Both the position numbers and the translations under genes were made by a program. This document shows, piece after piece, positions 19,713 to 45,714 of a DNA stretch of 64,000 nt (positions are counted from its first letter, which is position 1; each line of letters starts with the position of its first letter). The stretch is from Acinetobacter sp. GSS19. GTDB taxonomy: Bacteria; Pseudomonadota; Gammaproteobacteria; Pseudomonadales; Moraxellaceae. The stretch lies in the NCBI RefSeq assembly GCF_028621895.1, contig NZ_CP117520.1, positions 1,116,001 through 1,180,000 of the forward strand, read 5' to 3'. The notes under the pieces are model-generated. The model saw nothing but the letters and a program-made list of their open reading frames with translations. It was not told the origin of the DNA and did not search any database.

Positions 19713-20030
19713 ATGACAAAACCAAAATATACCCCTGAAATCCGAGATAGAGCGGTTCAATTATTGATTGAATCCGAAAAAGATTATCCATCGAATTGGG
19801 CTGCAATCACTGCTATTGCTCCCAAGATAGGTTGTACTCCTGAAACACTGCGTGTTTGGTATTTAAAACATCTCGATCAACAAAATCCTATCAAAGTACA
19901 ACAGGCATCAGATCAAGAAAAAATGAAGCAGATGGAACGTGAAATCAAAGAATTAAAGCGTGCCAATGAAATTCTACGTAAAGCAGCTGCTTTTTTCGCC
20001 CAGGCGGAGCTCGACCGCCCACACAAATAA
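19713..20030 (+). CDS. IS3-family transposase OrfA
   Basis: A 105-residue helix-turn-helix protein that recognises the element ends. It begins MTKPKYTPEIRDRAVQLL, has a helix-turn-helix in KIGCTPETLRVWYLK and a leucine-zipper-like helix (MEREIKELKRANEILRKAAA) for OrfA-OrfAB pairing. A slippery heptamer T_TTT_TTC in frame at 19991-19997 lets ribosomes shift by -1 into an open frame that runs straight into orfB, producing the fused OrfAB transposase. The stop codon overlaps the orfB ATG (TAATG). Confidence 0.92.
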   Translation: MTKPKYTPEIRDRAVQLLIESEKDYPSNWAAITAIAPKIGCTPETLRVWYLKHLDQQNPIKVQQASDQEKMKQMEREIKELKRANEILRKAAAFFAQAELDRPHK

Positions 20031-20932
20031 TGGTGGATTTCATCCATAACAATAAAGACTTATATGGTGTTGATGCGATTTGTAGGATTTTACCGATCGC
20101 AGCTTCAACCTATTACCGAACTTTAGATCTCGCGGACAATCCAGAACATCGAGCGAAGCGAGATTTACATGACTTGCATCATGCTGAACAAATTAAACGA
20201 ATTTGGAAGGAAAGTTCAGGTCGATATGGTGTACGTAAAGTTTGGCAAAAATTGAAACGTGAAGGCTATATTATTGCACGCTGTACAGTTGCTCGATTGA
20301 TGCAAAAGCTAGGTATACAAGGTGTTTGGCGAGGTAAGAATAAACAAACTACCCATAGCCGAGATGATCAAAAACGAGCAGATGACTTGGTGAAACGCAA
20401 TTTTAGTGCTGATCACCCTGACCAGCTGTGGGTCGCTGACTTTACGTATATTCAAACAAATTCAGGCTGGGTCTATACCGCCTTTATTATTGATGTGTTC
20501 TCGCGAGCAATTGTTGGATGGAAAGTATCAACACGGATGAATACAGACATGGTGCTCGATGCACTGGAGCAAGCATTGCATGATCGAGGCATGCCAAAGA
20601 ACGTGATTCATCATAGTGACAGAGGTGTGCAATATCTTTCCATTCGTTATACCAATCGTTTAGAAGCAGCAAATTTACGAGCATCAGTCGGTACGACCGG
20701 TGATTCATACGATAATGCTTTGGCTGAAACGGTGAATGGCTTATACAAAACAGAGGTGATTGAATATTTAAAAGCGGATTGGCAAGGTTTAGCGGATGTA
20801 CAACTTGCGACACTAAACTGGGTAGATTGGTTCAATAAAGAGCGTGTACATAGTGCACTAGGTTATGTGTCACCTTTTGATTTTGAAGCAATGTACTATG
20901 ATAAAATTAACCCATTAGGTCAGGTGGCCTAA
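20030..20932 (+). CDS. IS3-family transposase OrfB (DDE integrase core)
   Basis: A 300-residue catalytic half of the transposase. An HTH_21-type region (SGRYGVRKVWQKLKREGY) is followed by the rve DDE core: first Asp in LWVADFTYIQTNSGW, second in VIHHSDRGVQYLS, and Glu in YDNALAETVNGLYKTE. It is probably made mainly as an OrfAB fusion by -1 frameshifting at 19991-19997; the 13 codons between that point and this ATG are open. It is full length with no disruption. Confidence 0.93.
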   Translation: MVDFIHNNKDLYGVDAICRILPIAASTYYRTLDLADNPEHRAKRDLHDLHHAEQIKRIWKESSGRYGVRKVWQKLKREGYIIARCTVARLMQKLGIQGVWRGKNKQTTHSRDDQKRADDLVKRNFSADHPDQLWVADFTYIQTNSGWVYTAFIIDVFSRAIVGWKVSTRMNTDMVLDALEQALHDRGMPKNVIHHSDRGVQYLSIRYTNRLEAANLRASVGTTGDSYDNALAETVNGLYKTEVIEYLKADWQGLADVQLATLNWVDWFNKERVHSALGYVSPFDFEAMYYDKINPLGQVA

Positions 20933-34670: not shown

Positions 34671-35303
34671 TTAGTGGCTGTGCAGAAATTTAAGCTGCTG
34701 GTACTGCTGCAATTCATCGAAGGAATTAATACTGTGAAAAAACAGTGCGTGATTTCTAAAACGTGCAACTTGAGCGTGCAGATCAGCAAAACAACCTTTT
34801 AAACTGTGCTGTTTTTGCGCCAAATGCTCTAGGAATTGGGCAAGACTGTCGCGTTTCACCAGACAAAACGGATATAAGGCTGTGCCATTGATTTCAACAT
34901 AGGCCACCTGGGCCAGAGGATGTCTAGCCAAAGCCTGATGCAGCCGGCTCAGGACATTTGGTGGAATAAAAGTCACATCACATGGGACAAAGAGCACGTG
35001 GTCCGCTTGTACGTGCGACCAGGCACTTTTCATGCCCATCAATGGTCCTAAAAAGCCGCTTTGGTCATCACTATAACAGTGAACGCTGCCAATGAGGTGT
35101 TGATAAATGGACGCATCGCGATGACTATTGATCCAGACCTGTGCAACACTCGCTTTCAGTTGCTGGTGTATTTTGATCAATTGCATCTGATCATCAAATG
35201 TCTGGAGCAACTTGTTGACGCCATTCATTCTTCGTGCCTGACCACCGGCCAGGATCACTAGGTCGGTAACAGGGTAATCTTTTTTCTTGAGAACACGACT
35301 CAT
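34671..35303 (-). CDS. mobA: Molybdenum cofactor guanylyltransferase MobA
   Basis: Attaches GMP to Mo-molybdopterin to make the bis-MGD cofactor used by NasA-type reductases. The nucleotide-binding start LVILAGGQARRMNGVNKLLQ and the downstream FVPCDVTFIPP metal-site region identify the family. The ATG at 35303 overlaps the nasA stop (ATGA) and has a GGAGGTGG ribosome site, so translation is coupled to nasA. An upstream start in the same frame would overlap nasA further and is unlikely. Confidence 0.92.
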   Translation of the reverse strand: MSRVLKKKDYPVTDLVILAGGQARRMNGVNKLLQTFDDQMQLIKIHQQLKASVAQVWINSHRDASIYQHLIGSVHCYSDDQSGFLGPLMGMKSAWSHVQADHVLFVPCDVTFIPPNVLSRLHQALARHPLAQVAYVEINGTALYPFCLVKRDSLAQFLEHLAQKQHSLKGCFADLHAQVARFRNHALFFHSINSFDELQQYQQLKFLHSH

Positions 35304-38080
35304 TGTGCCACCTCCGTCTGACAAGCTTTAATCAGCCCGCGAATCTCAGGCAAACATGAGCCACAGTTGCCCCCGGCTTTCAAGCAGGCAGTCACCTGTT
35401 TTTCATCGGTCATGTTTTGGCTTAGGATGGTTTCAATAATTCGGTTTTTACCCACTTTAAAACAGCTACAGACCAGTGGACCATCATTATTGAGCATCGA
35501 CATCGCTTGTCCAGCCAGTAAGGCTTTACGGTGCATGAGACTTAAACGTTCCCGCTTGAACAAACTGGCTATCCAGTCCCGATCGGGTAATAAGTGTTGA
35601 GGTGCGATATACAGACTGGTAATCAACTGTCCTTCTTTTAACACTACACTGTGACTGATCTGTGCAGTCTGGTCTTCAAGATTCAGCCATTCAAAGCTTT
35701 CTTCCTGAAAAGGCAACCATTCTTTTAAATGTTCGGTGGTTTCTGCCAGTTTCTTACGGTCTGCTATCTCATAACGTACGGCACTAAACAGGGTAATTTT
35801 TGTCCACCATGCCATCTTTTCCAATGCTGGCCTTATACGCTGTTCATAGCCTTGACGTATGTATAACACCCCCTGCCATTGGCTATAAAAAGGCTCAATC
35901 ATGACCGGGGTATGCTTAAATTCCGGCTCGCCTGAAATGACATCCACTACTGGATTGACCACTTTTCCGATACGGGCATCAGAAGCAACTTGATCATTCC
36001 AGTGAATAGGTGCAAAAACCTGCCCACGGCGGATATTCTGGCTCAGCTGGGCACGCAGCACGCAGCTACCCCATTGAGATTTCACCTTAACTAACCCAGC
36101 GTCCTGGATGCCATATTTCAATGCATCTTGCGGATGAATTTCACAGTAGGGTTCTGCACGATGGCTGCTGAGATTGGCTGACAGCCCAGTGCGGCTCATG
36201 GTATGCCACTGGTCCCGAATCCTTCCGGTATTTAAAATCAAAGGAAACGCATGACAAGTTTGATGTACCGGATTGATTGCTATGGTAGCGATAAATTTTG
36301 CTTTGCCATTTACATGGCTGAACTGCGCTTGATCATAGAGACGTATCGCTGCAGGATTCGGTTGATCTCTGGACCAGACCGGCCATTGAACCGGTTGCAG
36401 TGCCGCATATTCATCAGGGGTTAAATCGGTTAAACCCTGCAGGTTAAAATAACGAAAATGTGGCTTTGTAGTGCGCTGAGCCAGATCCGAATTTTCCAGC
36501 GCTGATAACCGCGCATGTTCGAGAAAGATCTCATGGCTGCTACGATAGTCAAAATGCTGAAAACCTATACGTTGTGCCACCTGGCTGATGGCCCACCAAT
36601 CGGGTTTTGCAGCATAAGGTGCTGGTAAAAAAGCCCGTTGTCTGGAAATACGGCGTTCTGAGTTGGTCACGGTCCCGTCTTTTTCACCCCATCCCAGCGC
36701 AGGCAAAAGTACATCAGCATATTGCGTGGTGTCAGTATTCAGGCAGATATCCGATACCACCACAAATTCACATTTTTCCAGTGCACGTTTGACCTGATCA
36801 GCATCAGGCAAACTCACCACAGGATTGGTGGCCATGATCCAGATGGCCTTTATTTTTCCGCTTTCTACCGCACGAAATAAATCGACGGCCTTCAAGCCGG
36901 GCTGCTGGGCAATATGCGGACTTTGCCAAAAATTCTGTACCAGTTGTTGGTGCGCTGGATTGTCCAGTTCCAGATGTGCTGCCAGCATATTCGCCAATCC
37001 ACCGACTTCACGCCCCCCCATGGCATTTGGTTGCCCTGTCATGGAGAATGGTGCTGCACCAGGTTTGCCTATTTTGCCGGTCAGCAAATGACAGTTGATA
37101 ATGCTATTGGCTTTGTCCACGCCTTGCGACGACTGATTAACCCCCATCGAAAATAGGGTCATCACTTTATCTACCTGGGCGAATTTCTCATAAAAACTTT
37201 GCAGTTTTTCTAGGGCAATACCCGTCCGTTCAGCCACCTCTATCAATACGGCTTCATCTTCACTGGCAAGCAAAGCCTGCTCTAAGCCTTGAGTATGGGT
37301 GTCAATAAAATCTTGATCGGCATATCCGTGTTTAAACAGATACTGCAATAGGCCATTAAACAGCCGGACATCTTGACCCGGCAAAATTGGCAGATGCAAA
37401 TCGGCGGCTTCACAGGTATTGGTAAAGCGTGGGTCAATCACCACCACGAACAAATCACGTTCTGCTTTGGCCTGCATAATGCGCTGATAGAGTACCGGAT
37501 GACACCACGCAGTATTCGATCCGACCAACACCACCATATCGGTCTGTTCAAAATCCTCATAACTGGCCGGAACAATATCCTCCCCAAAGGCACGTTTATG
37601 TGCTGCTACTGCCGAGGACATGCATAAACGTGAATTGGTATCAATATTGGCTGTGCCTAGATAACCTTTTATAAACTTGTTCACAACATAATAGTCTTCG
37701 GTCAGTAATTGCCCCGATACGTAAAAGGCAATACTGTCTCTTCCATACTGATCAATGCAGTGCCGAAATTGATCCGAAATCGTGGCAATTGCAGTTTCCC
37801 AATCGACAGGTTGGCGATGGGCTTGCCGTCCAAGCATGGGCTGCAATACACGCGTTTCCAGTCCTAGAGTATCTGCTAGATTGCTGCCTTTAATACATAA
37901 TTTTCCGTAATTAGAAGGATGCTGCGCATCTCCCCGAACATTAATTTTTTCGCCCAAAGCTGTTTGAGTCACCTCTACGGTCACACCACAGCCCACGCCA
38001 CAATAAGGACAGGTGGTATGTGTAGTTTTACTGGAATTTTCTGTGGAGCTATTGAGATCCACCATGGAAATACTGTTCAT
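35300..38080 (-). CDS. nasA: Assimilatory nitrate reductase, molybdenum catalytic subunit NasA
   Basis: Reduces nitrate to nitrite in the cytoplasm for assimilation. The 926-residue chain has an N-terminal [4Fe-4S] motif (CPYCGVGCGV at 24-33 plus GKLCIKG), a MopB bis-MGD catalytic body (VGSNTAWCHPVLYQRIM, MGVNQSSQGVDKANS) and a dinucleotide-binding domain (LNTGRIRDQWHTMSRTG). A C-terminal BFD-like [2Fe-2S] module (CSCFKVGK and CGSC) takes the place of a separate electron-transfer subunit. AGGAG precedes the ATG. mobA, which makes its cofactor, is translationally coupled downstream. Confidence 0.95.
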   Translation of the reverse strand: MNSISMVDLNSSTENSSKTTHTTCPYCGVGCGVTVEVTQTALGEKINVRGDAQHPSNYGKLCIKGSNLADTLGLETRVLQPMLGRQAHRQPVDWETAIATISDQFRHCIDQYGRDSIAFYVSGQLLTEDYYVVNKFIKGYLGTANIDTNSRLCMSSAVAAHKRAFGEDIVPASYEDFEQTDMVVLVGSNTAWCHPVLYQRIMQAKAERDLFVVVIDPRFTNTCEAADLHLPILPGQDVRLFNGLLQYLFKHGYADQDFIDTHTQGLEQALLASEDEAVLIEVAERTGIALEKLQSFYEKFAQVDKVMTLFSMGVNQSSQGVDKANSIINCHLLTGKIGKPGAAPFSMTGQPNAMGGREVGGLANMLAAHLELDNPAHQQLVQNFWQSPHIAQQPGLKAVDLFRAVESGKIKAIWIMATNPVVSLPDADQVKRALEKCEFVVVSDICLNTDTTQYADVLLPALGWGEKDGTVTNSERRISRQRAFLPAPYAAKPDWWAISQVAQRIGFQHFDYRSSHEIFLEHARLSALENSDLAQRTTKPHFRYFNLQGLTDLTPDEYAALQPVQWPVWSRDQPNPAAIRLYDQAQFSHVNGKAKFIATIAINPVHQTCHAFPLILNTGRIRDQWHTMSRTGLSANLSSHRAEPYCEIHPQDALKYGIQDAGLVKVKSQWGSCVLRAQLSQNIRRGQVFAPIHWNDQVASDARIGKVVNPVVDVISGEPEFKHTPVMIEPFYSQWQGVLYIRQGYEQRIRPALEKMAWWTKITLFSAVRYEIADRKKLAETTEHLKEWLPFQEESFEWLNLEDQTAQISHSVVLKEGQLITSLYIAPQHLLPDRDWIASLFKRERLSLMHRKALLAGQAMSMLNNDGPLVCSCFKVGKNRIIETILSQNMTDEKQVTACLKAGGNCGSCLPEIRGLIKACQTEVAQ

Positions 38081-39774: not shown

Positions 39775-42321
39775 TTAGGCTTCGGCCATAGCGATGCGCG
39801 TTGCATCACGTTCTACTTCAGTCTTTGGCCGGATTTGTCCGCGAACTTCAGCAAATTGAATATGCGGGTCTTGCTGCTGTTCAGCTTTAGCATTGATAAA
39901 GGTTTTAAAGCGCTTACGCACTTCTGGATCTTCCACCGCCGTACGCCATTCATCCTGATAGGTTCCCACTACATGGCTCATACGGCGTTCCAATTCAGCA
40001 GCTAGCCCCAGAGAATCATTCACCACGACATCTTTCAGATAATCCAGCCCACCTTCCATGTTGTCACGCCATACCGAGGTACGTTGCAAGCGGTCTGCCG
40101 TCTGGATATAGAACATAAAGAAGCGGTCGATATAACGGATCAAGGTGTGGGTATCGAGATCAGAAGCCAGTAATTCGGCATGGCGTGGTTTCATGCCGCC
40201 ATTGCCACAAACATAAAGATTCCAGCCTTTTTCAGTGGCAATGACGCCGACGTCCTTACTTTGTGCTTCGGCACATTCACGGGTGCAACCTGATACGGCC
40301 ATTTTCAGCTTATGGGGTGAACGCAGACCTTTGTAACGGTTTTCCAGGAAGATGGCCAAACCGACGGAATCATCTACTCCATAACGGCACCACGTGCTGC
40401 CGACACAGGATTTCACCGTACGCAGCGATTTACCATAAGCATGGCCGGATTCGAAACCGGCTTTGATGAGTTTTTCCCAGATTTCAGGCAACTGATGCAC
40501 TTGCGCACCAAACATATCGACACGCTGACCACCAGTTAATTTGGTATACAAACCATATTCTTTTGCAATCTGACCAACCGCAATTAAGCCATCGGGTGTC
40601 ACTTCACCACCGGCCATACGTGGTACGACTGAATACGAACCATCTTTTTGAATATTACCGAGATAATAGTCATTACTGTCTTGCAGTCCGGCATGACTTG
40701 GCTTCAATACGAAGTCATTCCAGCAGGAAGCCAAGATATTTGCCACCGTCGGTTTACAGATATCACAGCCCAAACCGTGGCCATGCTGCTGAATCAGATC
40801 ATCAAAGGTTTTGATTTCATTCACACGTACCAGGTGATACAGCTCTTGGCGTGAATAGGCAAAGTGTTCGCATAGATGGTTATTCACCATAACACCTTGA
40901 CGTTGTAGTTCAGCCTTCAACACCTGAGTCACTAACGGTGTACAGCCGCCACAAGCAGTTGCAGCTTTTGTGCATTTTTTTAGTGCGCCCAGCGAGGTTG
41001 AACCCTCCGCAATTGCACTGCAGAGATCTGCTTTAGAAACATTGTTACATGAACAGATAGTTGCACTGTCTGGCAGCAAATCAACCCCGCTTCCCCCAGT
41101 TTTTGCCGTGGATTGCGCATAACCCGGCATGATGAGACTTTCCGGATTTTCCGGCAGCGACAACCCATTCAGCATCATTTGCAGTAAGTCATTATATTCT
41201 TTGGCACATCCGACCAGCACTGCACCCAGCAATTTCGTTTTCTCAGCATTGACCACAATCTTTTTATAGATTTGCGCAGCTTCATCGGCATAGAAATAGC
41301 TCAGTGCATTCGGTGTCACGGCATGTGCATCTCCGACAGAAGCCACATCCACGCCCATCAGTTTCAGCTTGGTGCTCATATCTGCACCAGCAAACGGGCT
41401 GCATGCCTGTTCCATTACATGCTTGGCGGCAATCCGGGCCATGTCATAACCGGGGGCTACCAACCCGTAAATTTTGTTATTCCAAAGTGCACATTCACCA
41501 ATGGCATAAATATCGGGGTTGGATGTTTGGCAATAATCATTAATCATGATTCCGCCGCGCTCCCCAATAGCAAGCCCGCTCTGACGCGCCAATTCATCCC
41601 GTGGACGGATACCCGCAGAGAATAGAATAATGTCCGTTTCCAGTTCCGAACCATCCGCAAACTTCATTACGTGAGTACTAGAAATTCCGGCTTCAATTGA
41701 TGATGTTGCCTTTTGGGTATGAACACTCACTCCCAAATTCTCGATTTTTGCCCGTAAAACTTTACCGCCCAGATCATCAATTTGTACTGTCATAAGGCGC
41801 GGAGCAAATTCCACCACATGGGTGTCCAGATTCAAATCACACAGTGCCTTCGCCGCCTCCAAGCCGAGTAAGCCACCGCCAATGACCGCACCGGTTTTTG
41901 CAGTTAAGCTGGCAGCACGAATCGCATCCAGATCTTCAATGGTGCGGTAAACAAAGCAGTTCTCACGGTCATTGCCCGGAATAGGAGGAACAAAAGCGTA
42001 TGAACCGGTTGCCAACACCAATTTATCAAAACTCAGAACATCTCCATGATGAGTGGTGACCGTTTTATGCAAGGGGTCAATCGCCACAGCTTTGGTGTCC
42101 AAGCGTAAATCGATGCCATACGCATCGGCAAAATCCGCACGGCACAAGGTCAAATCTTTGGCAGATTTTCCGCTGAAATATTCAGTCAAATGCACCCGGT
42201 CATACGCCAAACGTGATTCTTCGGCCAAAATGGTGATTTCCACTTCGTCACCGGCATGTTCCAAAACAGATTCGATAAATTTGTGGCCAACCATGCCATG
42301 ACCGATCATAATAATTTTCAT
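39775..42321 (-). CDS. nirB: NADH-dependent nitrite reductase large subunit NirB
   Basis: Six-electron reduction of nitrite to ammonium in the cytoplasm. The 848 residues have an N-terminal FAD/NADH reductase (MKIIMIGHGMVGHKFIE, GAVIGGGLLGLEAAKAL), BFD-type [2Fe-2S] modules (CSCNNVSKADLC and CGGC, then CDICKP) and a sirohaem/[4Fe-4S] domain with KSCVGSTWCRYG and SGCTRECAEAQSKDVGV. A GGAG ribosome site supports the start. Its NirD partner appears to be the fused N-terminal domain of the next gene. Confidence 0.95.
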   Translation of the reverse strand: MKIIMIGHGMVGHKFIESVLEHAGDEVEITILAEESRLAYDRVHLTEYFSGKSAKDLTLCRADFADAYGIDLRLDTKAVAIDPLHKTVTTHHGDVLSFDKLVLATGSYAFVPPIPGNDRENCFVYRTIEDLDAIRAASLTAKTGAVIGGGLLGLEAAKALCDLNLDTHVVEFAPRLMTVQIDDLGGKVLRAKIENLGVSVHTQKATSSIEAGISSTHVMKFADGSELETDIILFSAGIRPRDELARQSGLAIGERGGIMINDYCQTSNPDIYAIGECALWNNKIYGLVAPGYDMARIAAKHVMEQACSPFAGADMSTKLKLMGVDVASVGDAHAVTPNALSYFYADEAAQIYKKIVVNAEKTKLLGAVLVGCAKEYNDLLQMMLNGLSLPENPESLIMPGYAQSTAKTGGSGVDLLPDSATICSCNNVSKADLCSAIAEGSTSLGALKKCTKAATACGGCTPLVTQVLKAELQRQGVMVNNHLCEHFAYSRQELYHLVRVNEIKTFDDLIQQHGHGLGCDICKPTVANILASCWNDFVLKPSHAGLQDSNDYYLGNIQKDGSYSVVPRMAGGEVTPDGLIAVGQIAKEYGLYTKLTGGQRVDMFGAQVHQLPEIWEKLIKAGFESGHAYGKSLRTVKSCVGSTWCRYGVDDSVGLAIFLENRYKGLRSPHKLKMAVSGCTRECAEAQSKDVGVIATEKGWNLYVCGNGGMKPRHAELLASDLDTHTLIRYIDRFFMFYIQTADRLQRTSVWRDNMEGGLDYLKDVVVNDSLGLAAELERRMSHVVGTYQDEWRTAVEDPEVRKRFKTFINAKAEQQQDPHIQFAEVRGQIRPKTEVERDATRIAMAEA

Positions 42322-42354: not shown

Positions 42355-43704
42355 TTAATTTTGAGCTTCAGCCATGTTGCGTTCATGCACAGCTTGTTCA
42401 AATAAACGCTGTTCTTTTTCTTTATGCTCAACCGAGAAACGGATCATCAGGACACAGCTGGCAGCAATCACCACCAAACCGCCAAGCACCATTAAGGTCG
42501 TTTGAATGTCTAACATGCCCTTGAGTAAGAAACCTGCTGCTACAGCTCCGACATTACCACCTGCACCAATAATGCCTGCTACGCCGCCCAAAGCATCACG
42601 GTCAATAAAGGGCACCAAAGCATAGGTTGCACCACACGCCATATGGGTGAATAGAGCGAACACCGTCATAGTTAAAATCGCCAGCATCGCACTGTTCATT
42701 TGCGAGAACACGATCAGAAACAGACCTTCCATGAGAATCATGCTGAACAGTACCTTGGTACGGCCATCCAGACCTTTTTTCAGCGCGACTTTGTCTGAAA
42801 CAATTCCGCCTAGCGCACGGGCAAACAGCGCCAGCAAACCAAAAATACCTGCAGCTAAACCCGCTTCTTTCAAACCGAAGCTAAAGTGTTCGACGTAGTA
42901 CATCGCGACGATGTTATGAATAAAGATTTCGATGCCAAAACACGCTGCATAGGCACCAAAAAGAATCCAGACGCGATAGTTACGTGCCGCATGCATCAGA
43001 ATAGCCATGCCGCCTTTTTTATCACTGCCGACCTGGATGCCTTGTGCACGTAATTCTTTAAAATTCCCTTGTGGGCAGTCTTGGGTCAGTTTCCAGTACA
43101 TGACGCCTACGATCAGCATCAACACACCTGGAACAATCAAAGCAACTCTCCAGCCCATAGCCTGTTCAACACCAAACATAACCAAGGCGGAAAGTAGTAA
43201 AGGCATTATTGCTTGTGTTGCGCCACCACCTGCATTGCCCCATCCTGCTGAAGCTGCATTGGCAGTTCCGACCACATTAGAGGCAAACATGATGCTAGTG
43301 TGATATTGGGTGATCACAAAACTTGCACCGATTGCACCAATTAATAACCGGAAAAACAGGAAGGATTCATAACTGTTGGCAGCAGCTACGCCAAACACAG
43401 GAATACTGCCGATAATGAGCAAAGCCGTATAGGTTTTACGTGGGCCGTATTTATCACATAATGGACCAACAATCAGTCGAACCAAAATCGTGATGGCGAC
43501 TGCAGCAATGTTGATATTGGCAATTTGATCTTTGGTTAAATCGAATTCACCGGCAATCACCGGCATTAACGGCGCACAGGCAAACCAGGCAAAGAAACAG
43601 ACAAAAAAAGCCAGCCAACTCATATGGAAGGCTCTCATCGCTGCGCTGCTGAAGTTCAATAAACTTATTTTTGTCGCTTTTTTAGCATTGATATTGAAAG
43701 ACAT
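42355..43704 (-). CDS. narK: Nitrate/nitrite MFS transporter (NarK/NasA family)
   Basis: A 12-helix major-facilitator transporter of about 449 residues importing nitrate. NNP-family features are FACAPLMPVIAGEF, the loop GPLCDKYGPRKTY and the nitrate-signature-like glycine-rich helix SAGWGNAGGGATQAIMP, plus a second one in GVAGIIGAGGNVGAVAAGF. I chose the ATG at 43704 because GGAGAG is six bases from it and abuts the earlier ATG. It is the first gene of the nitrate operon, behind a sigma-54 promoter and a structured leader. Confidence 0.93.
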   Translation of the reverse strand: MSFNINAKKATKISLLNFSSAAMRAFHMSWLAFFVCFFAWFACAPLMPVIAGEFDLTKDQIANINIAAVAITILVRLIVGPLCDKYGPRKTYTALLIIGSIPVFGVAAANSYESFLFFRLLIGAIGASFVITQYHTSIMFASNVVGTANAASAGWGNAGGGATQAIMPLLLSALVMFGVEQAMGWRVALIVPGVLMLIVGVMYWKLTQDCPQGNFKELRAQGIQVGSDKKGGMAILMHAARNYRVWILFGAYAACFGIEIFIHNIVAMYYVEHFSFGLKEAGLAAGIFGLLALFARALGGIVSDKVALKKGLDGRTKVLFSMILMEGLFLIVFSQMNSAMLAILTMTVFALFTHMACGATYALVPFIDRDALGGVAGIIGAGGNVGAVAAGFLLKGMLDIQTTLMVLGGLVVIAASCVLMIRFSVEHKEKEQRLFEQAVHERNMAEAQN

Positions 43705-43763
43705 AGCCATCTCTCCAGAACTGAACCTATTGAGTGATCTGTCATACAGATTGCTGTAGAACA

Positions 43764-43827
43764 GACTCCATCAGAGCGGACGTCATTGGCCGTCTTACAA
43801 AATTATATGAGTCATCTTTGACTCAAC
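43764..43827 (-). promoter_or_regulatory. ANTAR-target leader (NasT antitermination hairpins)
   Basis: The leader RNA of the narK operon (minus strand) holds two adjacent hairpins with six-base loops. P1 is TGAGTC-AAAGAT-GACTCA (43808-43825) and P2 is CGGCC-AATGAC-GTCCG with one C-U mismatch (43777-43792), joined by a 15-nt linker. Both loops have A at position 1 and G at position 4, the defining feature of RNA bound by ANTAR proteins. A competing stem GACGTCC/GGAGTC (43764-43784) overlaps P2 and could be the terminator arm, though no strong U tract follows. The divergent nasT gene encodes an ANTAR protein. Confidence 0.75.
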
Positions 43828-43835
43828 TGAGATAA

Positions 43836-43851
43836 TGCAAAGCCTGTGCCA
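43836..43851 (-). promoter_or_regulatory. Sigma-54 promoter of the narK-nirB-nasA-mobA operon
   Basis: On the minus strand TGGCACAGGCTTTGCA is a full match to the sigma-54 consensus. The predicted start falls just at the foot of hairpin P1, so the ANTAR-type structure would be at the very 5' end of the RNA. The dyad-like GTGCC-N7-GGTGC at 43989-44005, about 140 bp upstream, is a weak candidate for an NtrC site. Confidence 0.92.
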
Positions 43852-44069
43852 AAGTAATATAAGTCGATCTAAGCTACTATTTTTATTTGTTTTAACGATG
43901 GGATTTTGAAGGATATCTAGCTTTTTTCCAGTTTGAGAAACTGAGAGATCAGGACAAATCTGAGTTGCGTGCGCTGTTGTAATACGCCGTGCCTTAACAA
44001 GGTGCAACCCTGAACATTCGGTATGCTTTTTCAGGATTCAAGAGCCGATGAAAATGTGCTGCTCGAATT

Positions 44070-44085
44070 TGGCATTTTAATTGCT
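44070..44085 (+). promoter_or_regulatory. Possible sigma-54 promoter of nasT-nasS
   Basis: TGGCATTTTAATTGCT keeps GG and GC at the correct 10-bp spacing and matches TGGCAC-N5-TTGCW with one change. A start near 44097 would leave about a 40-nt leader before the nasT ATG at 44137. If real, the open frame upstream of 44137 is not translated. Confidence 0.5.
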
Positions 44086-44136
44086 TCTGATTGGAAACGA
44101 CGTTTCTTTCAGGTTATTCCTGATGATAGTAGCCTT

Positions 44137-44724
44137 ATGCCAAAACTCAAAATCGCACTGATTGATGATGATCAAGCACGTGCCAACCACATCAAAGCTT
44201 CGTTAATCCAGCATGATTTCGAGGTGGTGGCCTGTCTCATCTTTGATCATTTAAACCTGCTGCGTCTGGAGCAGTTACAGGCGGACATCATTTTACTGGA
44301 CATGGATCACCCACAGCGTGACCTGATTGAAAGTTGTGTCAGCCAGTTTAATCTTCCCACCGTTTTGTTCACCAAAAACAGCCAGAAAGACATGATCAAA
44401 AATGCCATAGAGGCAGGTGTCACTGCCTATATTGTGGATGGCATTGATCCCAGCAGGCTTGAAAGTATTCTGCACATTTCCATTGAGCAATTTAAAAAAC
44501 ATAAAAAATTGCTCTCGGACCTTGAAAGCGCCAAAAATAAATTGGCGGATCGAAAAGATATCGAAAAAGCCAAAGCCTTAATGATGCAATTACATGGCCT
44601 GACTGAAGATCAGGCCTTCCAGCTGCTACGTAAAAATGCCATGAGCCACCGCATGACCATTGGAGAAATGGCTCGCCGTTTACTGGATGCACAACAACTT
44701 TTACAGAACCATTTGAAGGATTAA
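44137..44724 (+). CDS. nasT: ANTAR-domain antiterminator NasT
   Basis: A two-domain RNA-binding response-regulator-like protein of 195 residues. A receiver domain (MPKLKIALIDDDQARANHIK, with LLDMDHP near the phospho-acceptor position) is followed by a C-terminal ANTAR helix bundle (KDIEKAKALMMQLHGLTEDQ, then FQLLRKNAMSHRMTIGEMAR). NasT binds paired hairpins in nitrate-operon leaders and prevents termination when released by NasS. The frame opens at 44023, but the ATG at 44137 begins the conserved receiver domain. It is divergent from the narK operon, whose leader carries matching hairpins, and adjacent to nasS. Confidence 0.9.
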   Translation: MPKLKIALIDDDQARANHIKASLIQHDFEVVACLIFDHLNLLRLEQLQADIILLDMDHPQRDLIESCVSQFNLPTVLFTKNSQKDMIKNAIEAGVTAYIVDGIDPSRLESILHISIEQFKKHKKLLSDLESAKNKLADRKDIEKAKALMMQLHGLTEDQAFQLLRKNAMSHRMTIGEMARRLLDAQQLLQNHLKD

Positions 44725-44727
44725 ACG

Positions 44728-45714
44728 ATGTATGATTTAGAAAAAACACAAATCCAGATCGGTTATCTTCCTTTACTGGATACTGTAGCAATTCTTTGGG
44801 CGAAACAGCGTGGGTTTTTTGCAGAACTAGGTTTGGATGTCAGCCTGGTACAAGAAGCATCCTGGGCCAGCCTGCGAGACCGGCTGGCTTTTGGTTTTAT
44901 CGATGCCGCACACTGCCTATCTGCAATGCTCCCTGCCGCTGCATTAGGTGAAGATCCGCTGGGTATTCCCTTACAAACCGCACTGATTTTAAGTTATAAC
45001 AGGGCATTCATCAGTCTGCATCAGGAGTTATGCTATGAACTCGGGATTACTGCAGATGATAGCGCACAAGCATCGGCAGAAAAAATCGTGGCAGCCCTAC
45101 GGCAACAACGCTCCATTCACTTGGCACATGTCTTTAAGCAATCCATTCATCATTACTGCTTAAGAGAATGGTTAGCCCTTGCTAACCCAAAGGTAGCACG
45201 AGAAATTCAACTGTTAACCCTTCCTCCAGCTTATATGGTAGAAGCCTTAACAAAACATCATATTAATGGTTGTTGTGTTGGAGAACCCTGGAATACTCAA
45301 GGGGAAATGTTAAGTATTAGTCAAATCGTCGCTTCGAGTCAGGAGATTATGCCTAAAGTGGCAGATAAAGTTCTGGCAGTGACTGCCGATTGGGCAATGC
45401 AACATCCAAACACTCATCAGGCAATGATTATCGCCATTCAGAAAGCACAGCAAGAGTTAAAAAATCTGGAAAATTACACGGCAGTTTGGCAAATGCTGAC
45501 TGATTTCAATATCATTCAGTTTCAATCTCTGGTCACACTGCATAGCCAGAGGTTTCATGCCATTGAACAAATGATTCGCAATTTGGTGGAGGGCTCTTCA
45601 CAACCGAAGGTAAAAGATTTTGAGTGGTTGATTTCACAAATGGCCAAATGGGATCAAATAAAAATTGATGAAAACTTAAAAGCAAAAATCATACGCTCAT
45701 GTATTTTAAATTAG
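44728..45714 (+). CDS. nasS: Nitrate sensor NasS (NrtA-like, cytoplasmic)
   Basis: A 328-residue NrtA/CmpA-type nitrate-binding protein without a signal peptide. It starts IQIGYLPLLDTVAILWAKQR and has DAAHCLSAMLPAAALG and LPPAYMVEALTKHHINGCCV-type pocket segments. In Azotobacter, Paracoccus and related systems, cytosolic NasS holds NasT until nitrate binds. It follows nasT after three bases on the same strand, the expected pair. An ABC nitrate importer role is unlikely because no permease genes are near and NarK is present. Confidence 0.9.
   Translation: MYDLEKTQIQIGYLPLLDTVAILWAKQRGFFAELGLDVSLVQEASWASLRDRLAFGFIDAAHCLSAMLPAAALGEDPLGIPLQTALILSYNRAFISLHQELCYELGITADDSAQASAEKIVAALRQQRSIHLAHVFKQSIHHYCLREWLALANPKVAREIQLLTLPPAYMVEALTKHHINGCCVGEPWNTQGEMLSISQIVASSQEIMPKVADKVLAVTADWAMQHPNTHQAMIIAIQKAQQELKNLENYTAVWQMLTDFNIIQFQSLVTLHSQRFHAIEQMIRNLVEGSSQPKVKDFEWLISQMAKWDQIKIDENLKAKIIRSCILN

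Follow-up and report, generated by a model that had tools for sequence, protein, structure and literature searches.

The nitrate assimilation operon of Acinetobacter is preceded by a two-hairpin RNA leader that is very likely a target of the ANTAR protein NasT. The recognition half of the leader is ordinary, the output half unusual. As far as sequence comparison can tell, the data point to an output made of start-codon control together with a terminator within the first open reading frame (ORF), and a scan for the classic alternative, a U-tracted terminator overlapping the second hairpin (P2), found it in 0 of 104 Acinetobacter leaders. Coordinates below refer to the window, the whole 64,000-nucleotide stretch of Acinetobacter sp. 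GSS19 DNA that was analysed (Table 1).

Table 1 Features of the nitrate assimilation locus and its leader in the window
Feature	Position	Strand	Remark
NtrC-like enhancer box TGCACCTTGTTAAGGCA	43990..44006		156 bp upstream of the -24 element; 3 mismatches to consensus
Sigma-54 promoter TGGCACAGGCTTTGCA	43836..43851	-	GG-N10-GC, perfect element
ANTAR hairpin P1, 6 bp, hexaloop AAAGAT	43808..43825	-	At predicted transcript 5' end
ANTAR hairpin P2, hexaloop AATGAC	43775..43794	-	Mismatch second from loop, kept in all relatives
CUGA, left strand of stem linking P2 to ribosome site	43771..43774	-	Pairs with 43721-43724
P3, variable hairpin between P2 and ribosome site	43735..43766	-	Predicted in the window
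UCAG, right strand of that stem	43721..43724	-	Adjoins Shine-Dalgarno
narK Shine-Dalgarno GGAG	43713..43716	-	
Start-codon context UGGCU-AUG-UC	43700..43709	-	Complementary to P2 5' arm (GACGGCCA)
Terminator-like hairpin and U7 tract within narK (codons MRAFHMSWLAFF)	43603..43636	-	Codon outliers over 87 species
narK, nitrate/nitrite transporter (MFS), first gene of operon	42355..43704	-	Named from its family and the sequence-only reading, not from a database name
nirB-type nitrite reductase	39775..42321	-	
Rieske-FAD/NAD oxidoreductase, 538 aa	38136..39752	-	
nasA-type molybdopterin nitrate reductase	35300..38080	-	
nasT, receiver and ANTAR domains	44137..44724	+	Pfam ANTAR 1.7e-16 plus receiver domain
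nasS, NMT1_2 periplasmic-binding-like sensor	44728..45714	+	Pfam

The leader, its promoter and its occurrence

The operon runs in the order narK, nirB, Rieske-FAD protein and nasA, with nasT-nasS divergent from it. Pfam domains place a receiver-ANTAR protein beside an NMT1-type sensor, which is the NasS-NasT arrangement and bears out the assignment of these genes made in an earlier, sequence-only reading of this DNA. The narK start is probably the ATG at 43704 rather than the ORF-list start at 43710, because the spacing to the GGAG fits and the start is aligned with those of relatives. For nasT, the start is probably 44137, because stop codons break the longer listed ORF in many relatives; its upstream extension (44023-44136), interrupted by these stops, is probably non-coding. 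Elsewhere in the window, positions 19988-20104 on the forward strand match the ALIL pseudoknot (Rfam RF01497, 80.6 bits), which we take to be the frameshift element of some IS3-type insertion sequences, one of which is probably present there.

The sequence-only reading had placed a perfect sigma-54 promoter directly before the leader, and the minus strand indeed reads TGGCAC-AGGCT-TTGCA at 43851-43836. The predicted transcription start lies at about 43825, twelve nucleotides past the C of the -12 element, and is the first base of P1. Promoter elements were judged against the general sigma-54 consensus and the NtrC consensus TGCACC-N5-GGTGCA. All 104 recognised leaders (see below) carry GG-N10-GC within 90 nucleotides upstream of P2, at a fixed distance from P1 in 86, and in 86 of 104 the predicted transcript enters the 5-bp P1 core at +2. 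Upstream NtrC-like boxes with at most three mismatches accompany 71 of the 104 leaders, against about 1.3 expected from base shuffles. Both parts of a sigma-54/NtrC promoter, the GG-N10-GC element and an upstream NtrC site, were thus found, and the boxes back the proposal that nitrogen limitation gates this promoter.

P1 reads TGAGTC[AAAGAT]GACTCA (43825-43808) and P2 reads GACGGCC[AATGAC]GTCCGCT (43794-43775), with A1 and G4 in both hexaloops, as the sequence-only reading had described, including P1 at the predicted 5' end. Counted from its loop, the P2 stem closes with a C-G pair, continues with a C.U mismatch and three G/C pairs, and has A.C and G.U at its base. Both stems reach the 3 bp or more of ANTAR targets (Ramesh 2012), P1 with 6 bp and P2 with its one internal C.U mismatch. 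The P1-P2 linker is likewise short, spanning 10-20 nucleotides over the 104 leaders with 13 the commonest length. The P2 loops and the G4 of P1 were built into the search patterns, so their presence in 104 of 104 leaders is by selection; at position 1 of the P1 loop, 94 leaders have A and 10 have G.

Aligning the leaders for covariation, as the sequence-only reading had suggested, gave a divided answer: both loops are kept and P1 carries compensatory changes, but P2 is too invariant to covary. Among 72 distinct leaders, four of the six P1 pairs have changes on both sides; the cells changed on both sides number 27 against 12.4 in shuffles, and no shuffle reached the covariation score. The P2 core is invariant in the same set, with the mismatch being C.U in 95, U.C in 8 and C.C in 1 of the 104 leaders, and therefore offers no covariation evidence. 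Taking P1 and P2 jointly over the 72 leaders, the counts of both-side-changed pairs and of pair types were not above shuffles. A P2 type with GTCCGAT was found at named loci of A. junii, A. haemolyticus, A. venetianus and others. An Rfam search, which the sequence-only reading had also proposed, returned no relevant match to the leader.

Matches to nasT at E 0.001 were present in 136 of 149 Acinetobacter genomes, of which 124 were judged strong from the match list. We read 110 nasT loci drawn from these 124, and the leader layout was recognised by pattern in 104 of them, followed by narK in 88 and by nirB in 16. In the six others, one locus (L065) has a variant at the same position, another (L006) has foreign-looking sequence up to the contig end, and four (L082, L092, L093 and L105) have no narK match adjoining nasT. 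Among the named genomes, which overlap the 110 loci, 65 of 68 loci carry the leader. A covariance model, R1, built from 38 leaders identified a single site in the genome of the window (E 3.3e-14; next E 4.3). R1 also found the leader in all seven nasT genomes in which it was unrecognised beside nasT (the six pattern misses and G006, which had not been read earlier), at E 7e-6 or better and with narK behind it in all seven loci returned; its distance from nasT is hundreds of kilobases in G061 and G115 and about 14 kb in G132 and G143. Of 13 genomes lacking nasT, one has an R1 match below 1e-3, a decayed relic. From these results we conclude that the leader accompanies the operon and not nasT itself; as in NasS-NasT systems, it keeps its place at the nas operon and is found in genomes that have nasT.

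Across 293 genomes of the order, searched with stricter filters, R1 matches at 0.001 occurred only in the two Acinetobacter drawn. A plasmid search with the leader gave no match, and a search of 20 genomes with no nasT or a weak match, run without its own positive control, did not find narK. Two genomes, G006 and G086, have two strong R1 matches each, so NasT may have two targets there. The layout in 104 of 110 loci, the compensatory changes in P1 and the upstream NtrC-like boxes make it very likely that this leader, read from the DNA as ANTAR-type at the outset, is a NasT target RNA.

Search for a terminator at P2

The sequence-only reading had pointed to the known NasT/NasS antitermination, with the caution that attenuation here may not be classic Rho-independent termination; classic antitermination was not supported. 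Our scan sought dual hexaloops with a P2-overlapping stem and a T-rich tract. In contrast to its empty result for the 104 Acinetobacter leaders, it found a terminator with dual hexaloops at 17 of 40 nasT loci of other Pseudomonadales, and at 1 of 40 reversed controls; P2 positions were given for Acinetobacter and searched for in the others, and the 40 are all loci, not all leaders. One further locus (L121) has a leader of the classic type with a P2 terminator, placed before a different gene; its source is the sole genome with a nasT match among ten other genomes sampled from the same family. In two loci of another family with divergent nasT and narK (L132 5740-5900 and L146 5150-5330), we observed a different structured leader behind a sigma-54 promoter (GUGCGUCGAAC..GUUCGA), in which no clear P1-P2 or U tract was apparent by eye.

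Candidate terminators within the Acinetobacter leaders were weighed individually. The stem at 43784-43764 that the sequence-only reading had offered as the terminator does exist, but we set it aside as a terminator. It has no U tract, a weakness that reading had itself flagged, and the window is the one leader of 104 with the full set of six pairs. Taking the best of seven registers, five pairs form in 22 and four in 51 of the 104 leaders; 59.6% of cells are paired and covariation is not beyond shuffles. A P3 hairpin with TTTTATAT in one leader (L042), considered as a classic terminator, proved unrelated. In twelve leaders the 3' arm of P2 is covered by a small hairpin, CCGATCTGATCGG-TTTGTTT, of only -3.3 kcal.

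The start codon and the first ORF

From P2 to the ATG, 72 leaders share one order of elements: a conserved CUGAUCG, the variable P3, a conserved CGUUCAG, the Shine-Dalgarno (SD) and GGN-AUGUC. P3 differs in sequence among species, and the distance from the P2 core to the start codon is steady at 75-97 nucleotides. Of the CUGA/UCAG pairs, the first two are kept in 72 of 72 leaders, the next in 68 of the 70 with letters there and the next in 69 of 72. For the window and for many of the leaders whose folds were inspected (every third of the 104), the minimum-energy structure is a long fold without P2; some leaders fold otherwise. In the long fold, the 5' arm of P2 pairs with GGN-AUGUC, its 3' arm with the SD, and CUGA with UCAG. 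On the alignment, this OFF structure pairs 80.7% of cells, compared with 22-37% when slid; five of its pairs are changed on both sides versus 2.0 in shuffles (2/500), and slid versions reach three.

We then modelled the effect of holding P2 in its folded state. The cost of opening the ribosome footprint, from -16 to +13, drops by 2.56 kcal/mol on average and by more than 0.5 in 98 of 104 leaders. For 34 chosen leaders, the easing is 2.45 versus 0.56 with foreign start contexts and lies above the null mean in 32; for the median leader, 12% of nulls reach the same level. The easing in the window itself amounts to 0.99 kcal, a value that 32% of nulls match or exceed, and the P2-start duplex there has a p of 0.31. 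The expected number of P2-start pairs is matched by a median of 11% of nulls, with 19 of 93 leaders below 0.05, and the P2-start duplex tested against shuffled contexts has a median p of 0.095, with 24 of 72 at 0.05 or less. Opening cost was adopted after the unpaired probability of the SD had given no support, and we report both: the mean of the latter was not raised with P2 held (11 up and 35 down of 104). Short helices at -10 to -1 did not outdo their shuffled counterparts (median p 0.51, 54 leaders), and swapping start contexts between clades revealed no general specificity. Register-shifted matches occur, as AATGGCG/CGCCATT in L159 and L160 and as GGCCAA/TTGGCC in L087. Judged by opening cost, a folded P2 makes the ribosome site easier to open than in controls for the genus as a whole, and does so only weakly in the window.

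Within narK, at about codons 24-36, the listed codons can form GCGAGCC..GGCTCGC followed by T6-T7, and the core stem plus T6 is present in 40 of 87 narK genes. We compared codon use column by column with same-amino-acid columns of the same gene and species (87 species). At the hairpin, CTC accounts for 0.54 of the Leu codons against a mean of 0.07 (highest of 26 other columns, 0.26), the Arg codon is one that pairs (CGA, CGG, AGA or AGG) in 0.76 against 0.20 (highest of eight, 0.68), and the Ala codon is GCC in 0.66 against 0.21 (2 of 35 other columns as high). TTT is used in 0.59 and 0.77 at the two Phe codons, against means of 0.65 and 0.64, which gives no clear sign that the U tract as such is favoured; only 50 of 88 narK genes have a U run of 6. 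A single-gene codon shuffle was passed in 26 of 88 genes, the hairpin in the window is not beyond it (P 0.29), and two outgroup narK genes showed no such stem by eye. On the column-wise comparison, the in-gene hairpin has selected synonymous codons.

Loci that have lost narK carry related features, and in several such lineages the hairpin persists in strengthened form. Ten of them keep a start codon and an ORF together with a U6-U7 terminator of -18.5 to -20.2 kcal. Nine of these form a clade (L031, L037, L041, L043, L044, L052, L101, L102 and L103) in which narK is cut to a 90-codon ORF (stop included) ahead of nirB that joins N-terminal and C-terminal narK codons; these loci retain the leader with the start codon, some 35 codons of narK and a terminator of -19.3 to -20.2 kcal. 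The ORF is open in 9 of 9, and in pairwise comparison of eight of the nine loci, codons with an amino-acid change are more numerous than silently changed ones in 27 of 28 pairs, the remaining pair being a tie. L032 keeps the -18.5 kcal version. A different stem, of -8.9 to -10.1 kcal, occurs in L080, L104, L107, L108 and L110, within the short ORF in four and just past the stop in L104; no in-ORF terminator was found in L076. The losses of narK appear to have been independent, judging from the differing leader types rather than from a tree. In the relic (L158, about 1490-1750 on the reverse strand, from a genome without a nasT or narK match), P2 has decayed and a perfect GAGAGCC/GGCTCTC-T6 stem is retained.

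Proposed mechanism and known systems

We propose that NasT turns on translation of the first ORF by holding P2, and that the ribosome then suppresses an attenuator that has moved into this ORF; where narK is gone, the ORF would be only the carrier of start codon and terminator. We put the chances of this proposal at about even. Judging from its sites, the sigma-54/NtrC promoter would open under nitrogen limitation, giving an RNA that begins at P1. Without NasT, the arms of P2 would be free to pair with the SD and start codon of the first ORF, ribosome loading would be poor, and polymerase would halt at the hairpin and U tract in codons ~24-36. With nitrate, NasS would free NasT, as in Paracoccus, and NasT would hold P1-P2; the ribosome site would open, a translating ribosome would block the in-ORF terminator and the operon would be read. 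The sequences themselves show a conserved leader, in which the scan found no terminator over P2, and an in-gene hairpin whose synonymous codons are selected; NasT binding, the exchange of P2 between its hairpin and the start codon, and ribosome suppression of the in-ORF terminator are all steps that we infer.

The same fold and conservation data would also suit a translational gate acting alone, with distal RNA lost by Rho or decay when nitrate is absent and some other role for the in-gene hairpin; 38 of 88 narK genes without a U run of 6 fit this simpler scheme. However, the codon outliers sit on the stem of a terminator-like hairpin, and that hairpin with U6-U7 is kept in several narK-less loci, so we consider a gate on its own unlikely, if worth keeping in mind. 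Classic ANTAR antitermination, in which NasT-held P2 would block an unrecognised terminator in the ~80 nucleotides between P2 and the start codon, is how EutV and NasR leaders are described (passages of PMC3369931 and PMC8934654) and has been postulated for NasT (PMC3795266, in part), and the small hairpin of the 12 leaders could be read in this way. Set against it are the weakness of that hairpin, the empty scan of all 104 leaders for a P2-overlapping stem with a T-rich tract and the 43784-43764 stem that is complete in one leader and does not covary; we hold it to be improbable.

NasT might instead act on the in-ORF terminator without a ribosome, for instance by remaining on the polymerase or by a contact between distant parts of the RNA; by sequence, the GGCC of P2 could also pair with the GGCU of the in-ORF stem. 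The in-ORF hairpin nevertheless lies ~140-190 nucleotides from P2, and such a mode was not met in the sections of the ANTAR literature consulted, which leaves this a long shot. Repression of translation by ANTAR binding, as reported for mycobacteria, has a counterpart in the ANTAR RNAs overlapping ribosome-binding sites (RBSs) that are predicted in actinobacteria (PMC8164766, in part). We give this reading scarcely any credence: P1-P2 end ~60 nucleotides before the SD, which lies outside them, and NasT is a positive regulator in Azotobacter and Paracoccus (PMC3795266, in part).

ANTAR proteins are known chiefly for antitermination of transcription. If the proposed NasT-dependent start-codon control is right, ANTAR recognition has been rewired genus-wide from a P2 terminator to a start codon plus an in-ORF terminator, and Acinetobacter offers a case, open to direct test, in which such a protein activates translation. 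Among the open-access papers listed by searches on NasT and ANTAR leaders, no title or abstract opening described this arrangement; an A. baumannii ANTAR protein, AvnR, has been studied before (cited in parts of PMC8164766 and PMC10269061).

With the NasS-NasT systems of Azotobacter and Paracoccus, Acinetobacter shares a receiver-ANTAR NasT, a NasS sensor, a nitrate assimilation operon and a hairpin leader RNA. In Paracoccus, NasT binds the nasA leader RNA and nitrate dissociates NasS from NasT (PMC3795266, in part); NasT is also found in Bradyrhizobium (PMC6759348, in part). Acinetobacter differs in that no P2 terminator was found and the start codon and in-ORF hairpin appear as the output. 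EutV-eut, NasR-nasF and AmiR-amiE likewise share with Acinetobacter a pair of hairpins whose hexaloops carry A1 and G4, joined by a short linker, as defined in portions of PMC3369931. The screen for ANTAR targets in that paper included an intrinsic terminator that overlaps P2; our scan found none in the Acinetobacter leaders, and their linkers are longer than the 5-12 nucleotides of eut, where lengthening to 14 impaired induction. Actinobacterial ANTAR RNAs, which cover the RBS or start codon (PMC8164766, in part), have in common with our proposal an output at translation initiation. In those RNAs, repression through occlusion is reported upon ANTAR binding (in mycobacteria, Mehta 2020, cited in PMC8164766), whereas in Acinetobacter the binding would activate by freeing the site. 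As in ribosome-suppressed intrinsic terminators in coding regions (PMC5021804, in part), a translating ribosome would stop the hairpin from forming, with the difference that ribosome loading would be set by an ANTAR protein. The leader would then show an RNA-binding module swapping its expression platform, as riboswitches do.
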